DNA of 35,465 nucleotides from NCBI GenBank assembly GCA_003153975.1, contig PMBZ01000020.1:22490-57954 (forward strand), given 5' to 3'. Shown in pieces: positions 16,930 through 18,599 of the stretch; position 1 is the stretch's first letter; the number at the start of each line of letters is the position of its first letter. Origin of the DNA: Hyphomicrobiales bacterium (GTDB lineage: Bacteria; Pseudomonadota; Alphaproteobacteria; Rhizobiales; Rhodomicrobiaceae). The notes below the pieces were generated by a model, which worked only from the letters and a program-made list of their open reading frames with translations, made no database searches and was not told the DNA's origin. The position numbers were made by a program, and so were the translations under genes.

Positions 16930-17274
16930 CTAAGCAAATCGCTCCCACGCGGCCTGGCGCGAGATGCCGAGCGTCTTGCCGATTGCCTCCCAGCTTACGC
17001 TGCGGCGCCGCAACTCGTCGATCATGGCCTGAAGTACGGTGCGCGTTGCCTCCACGGTCGCCTCGGCGGTCTTGAGGCCTGCCAGCAGCTCCTCGTTGGT
17101 CATTTCGCCCCAGCCGCCGGCCGTGGCCGGGGTTGCTTCAAGGATTTTGTTGCAGGTTCCGACGCAGCCGCCGCAGATGTAGACGCTGGGGCCTCCGATC
17201 AGCCGTGCAAGCTCCTTCTCGCTTTTGCCGCAGAACGAGCATTTGAGGGGCGATTTCCGTATGATCGAGAGCAT
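16930..17274 (-). CDS. Stand-alone ClpX-type C4 zinc-finger protein with C-terminal helix-turn-helix
   Basis: [39 protein letters not shown] closely resembles the ClpX zinc-binding domain; C-term [23 protein letters not shown] is HTH-like; no AAA+ domain. Start at MLSIIRK (17274) or ATG 17283. Confidence 0.8.
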
Positions 17275-17306: not shown

Positions 17307-17360
17307 TTGTCAGGGAAAGATTGACACCGCCGGCGCAGGCTGTCAAGCGCATCCTGACAA
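17307..17360. promoter_or_regulatory. Nested symmetric dyad in the divergent promoter region of the zinc-finger/HTH gene and hpnB
   Basis: TTGTCAGG(17307-17314)-N6-TTGACA(17321-17326)-N14-TGTCAA(17341-17346)-N6-CCTGACAA(17353-17360); both arm pairs share one symmetry centre. Confidence 0.7.
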
Positions 17361-17432: not shown

Positions 17433-18599
17433 ATGACATTTGAGTTGGCCCTGAGCGCAGCGGGCCTGGCTGCTTGGTTGTATCTGCTTGCGGCGCGGGG
17501 GGGATTCTGGCGCGCGAATATCCGCGACGAGGCGGATTTGGCGCCCGCTCCGCCAGTGTGGCCGCCGGTTGCGGCCGTTGTGCCGGCGCGCAACGAAGCC
17601 GATACGATCGGCGCGTGCGTGGGCAGCTTGCTGACGCAGGACTATCCGGAGCCGCTCGCCGTCGTTGTCACCGACGATCAAAGCGATGACGGGACCGCGG
17701 ATGCGGCACGCTCTGCCGCGCGGGCCGCGGGCGCTTCCGGCCGCTTGACGGTTCTTCCAGGCAAGCCCTTGCCGCCCGGATGGACGGGCAAGCTGTGGGC
17801 GCAAGCCCAAGGCGTGGCGCGGGCCGTGTCGCTGACGAAGCCGCCGCACTATCTTCTGCTCACCGATGCGGACATCGCCTACGATCCGGGCGTGGTGCGC
17901 TGCCTCGTCGCGCGCGCGGAGGCGCGGAGGCTCGTGCTGACATCGCTCATGGCCAAGCTGCGCTGCGAGAGCCTGGCGGAGCGCGCGCTGATCCCGGCCT
18001 TCGTGTTCTTCTTCCAGATGCTCTATCCCTTCGCCTGGGTGAACCGGAAAGAGAATGCCACGGCTGGAGCGGCGGGCGGCTGCATGCTCGTGCGGGCCGA
18101 TGCGCTCGAAGCCGCCGGCGGTATCGAGGCCATCCGCTCCTCGCTCATCGACGATTGCGCGCTGGGCCGCGCCATGAAGCGGCAGGGGCCGCTGTGGCTG
18201 GGGCTCACGGACAGCGTGCACAGCCTGCGCCCCTATCCTGGCTTCGGAGACATCCGGCGCATGGTCGCGCGCTCGGCTTACGACCAGCTCAACTACTCGC
18301 CGCTGCTGCTGGCGGGAACCGTTATCGGGATGACGCTGACCTACCTTTTGCCGCCGGCGCTGGCGGTATGGGGGACTGGACTGGCGCAGGCCGCCGGGGC
18401 GTTGACTTGGGCGCTGATGACGGCGGCTTTCTACCCCATCGTGCGCTTCTACAAACTGCCGGCCCTTTGGGCTATGGCGCTGCCTGCCATAGCCTGTTTT
18501 TATATGCTATTCACGCTCGACTCTGCGATTCAGCATTGGCGAGGCAGGGGCGGGCTTTGGAAAGGGCGCGTGCAGGCGCGCCGTGCGGAGGCATCATGA
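17433..18599 (+). CDS. hpnB: Hopanoid-biosynthesis-associated glycosyltransferase HpnB
   Basis: GT2 fold motifs (VAAVVPARNEADTIGACVGSLLTQDYP, VVTDDQSDDGTAD, LLTDADIAYDPG), C-terminal TM helices, directly upstream of hpnCDE. Confidence 0.88.
   Translation: MTFELALSAAGLAAWLYLLAARGGFWRANIRDEADLAPAPPVWPPVAAVVPARNEADTIGACVGSLLTQDYPEPLAVVVTDDQSDDGTADAARSAARAAGASGRLTVLPGKPLPPGWTGKLWAQAQGVARAVSLTKPPHYLLLTDADIAYDPGVVRCLVARAEARRLVLTSLMAKLRCESLAERALIPAFVFFFQMLYPFAWVNRKENATAGAAGGCMLVRADALEAAGGIEAIRSSLIDDCALGRAMKRQGPLWLGLTDSVHSLRPYPGFGDIRRMVARSAYDQLNYSPLLLAGTVIGMTLTYLLPPALAVWGTGLAQAAGALTWALMTAAFYPIVRFYKLPALWAMALPAIACFYMLFTLDSAIQHWRGRGGLWKGRVQARRAEAS

Follow-up and report, generated by a model that had tools for sequence, protein, structure and literature searches.

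In ClpX the zinc domain forms a dimeric receptor for adaptors and certain substrates, and the tail of SspB is one of its ligands. ClpC2 (Rv2667 and M. smegmatis ClpC2) was shown experimentally to repress its own synthesis and to act as a sponge for cyclomarin A (PMC10030653). The ClpC2 operator, CGTCAAC-N5-GTTGACG, often occurs in two copies over the promoter, and binding of cyclomarin A to the ClpC1-like domain of ClpC2 releases repression (PMC10030653). The authors proposed that the C-terminal domain, not the HTH, contacts DNA, and a change of R57 impaired dimerisation as well as DNA binding (PMC10030653). Another described protein, RelI (Rv2664), is an antitoxin paired with the toxin RelS; its authors found the upstream region free of inverted repeats and could not assign the protein a clear mode of DNA binding (PMC13284704). 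Here we describe a gene that joins a ClpX-type zinc domain to an HTH related to those of both proteins. In the open-access literature, which was the part covered, we found no description of this family; searches on the ClpX zinc finger plus HTH and on hpnB regulation gave nothing useful, and searches by motif letters returned oligonucleotide noise only.

The window analysed, a stretch of 35,465 nucleotides from a Hyphomicrobiales bacterium, carries on its minus strand (16930..17274) a gene for a protein of 114 aa, the presumed binder of the sites described below. GGAAGG stands nine bases upstream of the start codon at 17274. The protein consists of a C4 zinc finger (aa 11-46), a helical linker and a C-terminal HTH (aa 60-113), and its only Pfam domain is PF06689 (zf-C4_ClpX; E 3.5e-15). 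The AlphaFold model (mean pLDDT 86) shows a long helix at 60-90 and two short HTH helices at 95-113. Searched with Foldseek, the model matched solved structures of the ClpX zinc-binding domain over its N-terminal part, with more than 50% identity; the ClpX zinc domain alone gave matches and the HTH gave none above noise. The N-terminal 40 residues thus have the fold of the ClpX N-terminal zinc-binding domain (PDB 2ds5, 1ovx), whereas the AAA+ ATPase module of ClpX is absent, and therefore the protein cannot unfold proteins. The clpX gene of the same genome is cut by the end of a contig (G000:C232:30657-31181; contig of 31181 bases).

By its sequence the protein is a member of an uncharacterised ClpX-zinc-finger/HTH family annotated as 'ClpX C4-type zinc finger protein'. 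It has the family signature, a ClpX-type C4 zinc finger followed by a C-terminal HTH ending in RQ[AS]AWERF. Alignment of 55 family members demonstrated that the four cysteines of the zinc finger are invariant, as are R106, Q107, A109, W110, E111, R112 and F113 of the recognition helix, across phyla. The gene was absent from 120 order-level relatives including four congeners, in which the matches were ClpX itself; relatives of the same order were therefore rejected as a footprinting set, all matches outside the window genome being ClpX. A class-wide sample gave an HTH match in 5 of 386 genomes, the window genome included and one match being weak. The gene is thus patchily distributed and probably acquired, even though it resembles the genes around it in GC3 (0.81). 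It is flanked by hpnB and, on its other side beyond a small unassigned stretch, by PBP1C; no RelS-like partner was noticed.

Upstream of the gene lies an inverted-repeat element (17307..17360, no strand assigned) that the first-pass annotation had described as a nested dyad. Its sequence was confirmed letter for letter, with outer arms of 8 bp, inner arms of 6 bp, spacers of 6 nt and a centre of 14 nt. The distances given for it also hold: 33 bp separate the element from the ATG at 17274, and 73 bp, against the earlier estimate of about 70 bp, separate it from the homologous hpnB ATG at 17433. The symmetry is real, but the description as one single dyad is not kept; judged from the sequence, the 54-bp element is better parsed as two tandem 19-bp palindromes of the form TGTCARG-N5-CYTGACA, 33 bp apart from start to start. 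Reading half-sites, TGTCA...TGACA occurs twice, as TGTCAGGGAAAGATTGACA at 17308-17326 and TGTCAAGCGCATCCTGACA at 17341-17359. The distal operator, O1 (17341..17359, minus strand), reads TGTCAGG-ATGCG-CTTGACA and matches the family site at 14/14 arm positions, and the proximal operator, O2 (17308..17326, minus strand), reads TGTCAAT-CTTTC-CCTGACA and matches at 13/14, one arm base being non-consensus. Because any two palindromes placed side by side are symmetric about their midpoint, the shared centre needs no extra explanation.

A genome scan showed how rare these sequences are. In the 4.77-Mb assembly the exact pattern TTGTCAGG-N6-TTGACA occurs only at the element, once per strand, and TGTCA-N9-TGACA occurs at 3 places, 2 of which are the element copies; this rarity argues that the element is not a product of chance.

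The arms are kept upstream of homologous genes. In another phylum, the full-length homologues of a Streptomyces plasmid and of Nonomuraea each have two TGTCAGG-N5-CCTGACA palindromes (or one base off) just upstream. Scanning of genome contigs added 80 loci from Alphaproteobacteria, other Pseudomonadota, Binatota and Actinomycetota, and the family set comprised 86 homologues from Pseudomonadota, Actinomycetota and Binatota. After correction of start sites, 76 of the 86 loci have an upstream site and 70 have at least two (two or three). When sites were scored over 14 arm positions and counted at 13/14 or more, before four Binatia loci were re-placed, there were 130 in 14.6 kb of upstream DNA versus 2 in 450 kb of control DNA. 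With the shorter test pattern GTCA-N9-TGAC we counted 146 pairs in 15.1 kb upstream (9.7/kb) versus 20 in 448 kb of flanking DNA (0.045/kb), a density about 215 times higher, and every other gap from 0 to 26 gave at most 7 pairs upstream. TGTCARG-N5-CYTGACA sites directly upstream, as at the window gene, are thus a second feature of the family, established in this analysis. The distance between copies varies from 18 to 48 bp among relatives (most commonly 26-28 or 33) while the interior of each copy is fixed, indicating that what is conserved is the individual 19-bp site rather than the nested dyad. Invariant residues in the recognition helix are paired with operator arms that hardly vary. The loci are not independent, since many come from related species, about a dozen from Methylocystis or close to it; judged from the sequences, the spread over three phyla is not explained by that relatedness.

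These data bear on two other explanations of the palindromes. Inverted symmetry would also be expected of a terminator or a cruciform, or could arise by chance; the element, however, has divergent genes on either side, a scan for terminator-like sites in it came back empty, and arms with this geometry are seen again upstream of homologues but almost nowhere else, so that this explanation can practically be dismissed. We infer the binding of the palindromes by the adjacent protein, and a regulator encoded elsewhere might instead bind them and control the ClpX-zinc-finger/HTH gene. This is very improbable: the site goes with the gene across three phyla while the rest of those genomes has hardly any copy, and where a related HTH is combined with other domains, the gene concerned again has sites of this layout. 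Together the results point very probably to O1 and O2 as the operator pair of the adjacent ClpX-zinc-finger/HTH protein, which would repress its own synthesis. The footprinting across three phyla thereby lends strong sequence support to the first-pass proposal that the adjacent HTH protein regulates itself through an operator of four half-sites.

In 18 genomes that carry the family, sites with at most one mismatch are almost confined to the family gene. We looked for a wider regulon in the window genome, and the two best other sites (on contigs C138 and C193, one mismatch each) fall within long open frames or at their end and seem to be there by chance. In Methylocystis suflitae a perfect site, TGTCAAGGGTAGCCTGACA, is found away from the family gene, just before a long primase-polymerase-like open frame (L161 1501-1519). 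The sequence TTGTCAGCAGCGGTTTGAAA, with one base different in C76, stands at the very end of five contigs of the window genome (G000 C104:7-26, C105:4933-4952, C76:6-25, C247:7-26 and C264:6-25), where it probably marks the edge of a multi-copy element at which the assembly broke.

The position of the sites relative to the promoter was examined in the window and in relatives. The first-pass annotation had noted that TTGACA, read on the minus strand, could serve as a -35 box. This candidate box (17341..17346, minus strand) lies inside O1, and a candidate -10 box, CAATCT (17318..17323, minus strand), lies 17 nt from it, inside O2. The suggestion is plausible by analogy with relatives: among 57 loci whose first site has TTGAC at its end, 16 have a TAnnnT box 16-18 nt further on (1.2 expected from other offsets), and among 32 with TTGTC at its beginning, 15 have such a box at the same distance (0 expected). 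In the window itself, however, CAATCT is a weak -10 box and a consensus promoter scan of the region found no promoter, and for these reasons we treat the window promoter as a candidate.

Most arrangements at family loci place the second site over the -10 or start region. An operator upstream of and over the -35 box would also fit a protein that activates its own promoter. We consider such positive autoregulation quite improbable, given the second site over the -10 or start region and the fact that ClpC2, the closest studied relative, represses (PMC10030653). With both operators over the gene's own candidate promoter, the protein would repress its own synthesis.

The divergent neighbour of the gene is hpnB (17433..18599, plus strand), which encodes a hopene-associated glycosyltransferase and starts hpnBCDE. 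The first-pass annotation had suggested that the HTH protein could also control hpnBCDE, and hence hopanoid synthesis. The position of the sites would suit a shared operator: a single intergenic region separates the divergent genes, and the sites are within it, 73 bp away from the start codon of hpnB. However, hpnB lies within about 3 kb of no other family locus and adjoins no other family member examined, the divergent neighbours of other members are unrelated, and four congeners have hpnBCD without a ClpX-zinc-finger/HTH regulator. Moreover, no plus-strand promoter was found that O1 and O2 would cover, and the stretch upstream of hpnB in one of the genomes (G003) has no site. Since the pair of hpnB and regulator is present in no other locus examined, control of hpnBCDE is unsupported and we regard it as unlikely. 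Judging from its neighbourhoods, hpnB is probably an accidental neighbour of the ClpX-zinc-finger/HTH gene, outside the system. A search for conserved neighbours among family loci turned up no more than synteny inside genera and GFA-domain genes that recur loosely.

The HTH of the family is homologous to that of a ClpC2 orthologue (hhalign probability 96%, E 1.5e-9) and to the HTH region of RelI (PDB 9sdc; E 2e-9), although RelI has no zinc finger and the window protein has one of the ClpX type. When six actinobacterial genomes were searched with the family profile, three ClpC2 orthologues were recovered, each preceded by CGTCAAC-N5-GTTGACG twice, about 29 bp apart, one copy having one arm mismatch. 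By count, R57 of ClpC2 aligns with R89 of the window protein, a residue present in at least 90% of the family. ClpC2 and the window system thus have in common a homologous HTH, a 7-5-7 self-operator with a GTCA core, and fusion of the HTH to the substrate-receptor domain of a Clp unfoldase. They differ in the receptor: ClpC2 has a ClpC1-type Clp_N domain following its HTH (the orthologue shows PF02861), and the window protein has a ClpX zinc domain ahead of its HTH, Clp_N being absent and zf-C4_ClpX the only domain found. The operator arm is CGTCAAC in ClpC2 versus TGTCARG in the window family, the corresponding recognition-helix sequences being KQAAQKRF and RQAAWERF, and ClpC2 has been studied in actinobacteria, whereas the ClpX-zinc-finger/HTH family occurs also in Pseudomonadota and Binatota. 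The window protein is therefore not a ClpC2, but as far as the DNA shows it works like one.

The 7-5-7 layout is common to the window family, to the ClpC2 orthologues and to the sites of an HTH protein without a zinc finger (L202, below). As the HTH is the common denominator of the genes with such self-operators, and the only part that the window family shares with ClpC2, it is the likely reader of the DNA; the comparison suggests that in ClpC2, too, DNA contact falls to the HTH rather than to the C-terminal domain. If the view of the ClpC2 authors is right, the analogy with ClpC2 is weakened. Autorepression is nevertheless the best reading of the window gene, because its HTH is homologous to that of a self-repressor with the same operator layout. 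In the mechanism we propose, the C-terminal HTH of a protein dimer would read each 19-bp palindrome, a dimer at each site, and the effect would be repression rather than activation. For a family named in databases by its zinc finger only, this gives a precise pair of operator and regulator, and ClpC2 would become one case of a wider design in which the receptor domain of a Clp unfoldase is joined to a self-repressing HTH.

The role of the zinc domain, as ligand sensor or as sponge or decoy, is a matter of speculation. Since the ClpX zinc domain is dimeric and binds the SspB tail and certain substrates, it could supply both dimerisation and sensing. A ligand on the N-terminal domain might abolish DNA binding, upon which the protein would be made in quantity as a decoy. 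We tentatively consider, while holding it to be somewhat doubtful, that the family is a widespread, undescribed class of inducible ClpXP decoys, in which a free ClpX receptor domain is fused to the repressor of its own gene. A ligand such as an adaptor tail, a phage protein or a natural product would then occupy the receptor domain, the decoy would become abundant and ClpX would be spared. If so, ClpX would have its own equivalent of ClpC2 and cyclomarin. Should the zinc domain sense ligands, the operator-promoter would provide a ready-made reporter for molecules that bind the ClpX receptor domain.

Several loci depart from the common arrangement. One locus, L055, has no site. Eight Nocardioides members (L103, L109, L111, L112, L123, L125, L128 and L136) lack the upstream site and have one conserved site, e.g. 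TGTCAAGGTACGCTTGACG, just past the stop codon, at about +395 to +406 counted from the start of the gene. In Binatia (L089, L090, L093 and L100) the full gene does not follow the two sites directly: a ClpX-type zinc-finger stretch in a different frame comes first, probably a tandem duplication with a change of frame. At about 13 loci, genes of the cluster that holds GFA-domain (PF04828) proteins stand no more than 3 kb from the family gene, in either orientation (a raw count, one case being confirmed by Pfam); these loci include L063, L064, L066, L067, L068, L073 and L120.

We also noticed other combinations of the HTH. L202 (L168 2001-2786), recovered in the same profile search of six actinobacterial genomes as the ClpC2 orthologues, encodes a protein of 246 aa with the family HTH, no zinc finger and no Pfam domain, and its gene is preceded by two TGTCA-type sites, TGTCAAGGAATCCTTGACG and TGTCATGGAAATCTTGACG, 28 bp apart at -45 and -17. 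In Saccharopolyspora (L192; G521:C55, about 151310-151618) an HTH-like stretch is followed by two ClpX-type zinc fingers. In Herbidospora (L194/L189; G514:C22, about 413188-413568) the order is reversed, HTH then ClpX zinc finger, and a palindrome at the 5' end, TGACAAC-N5-GTTGTCG, is an arm variant of the same layout.
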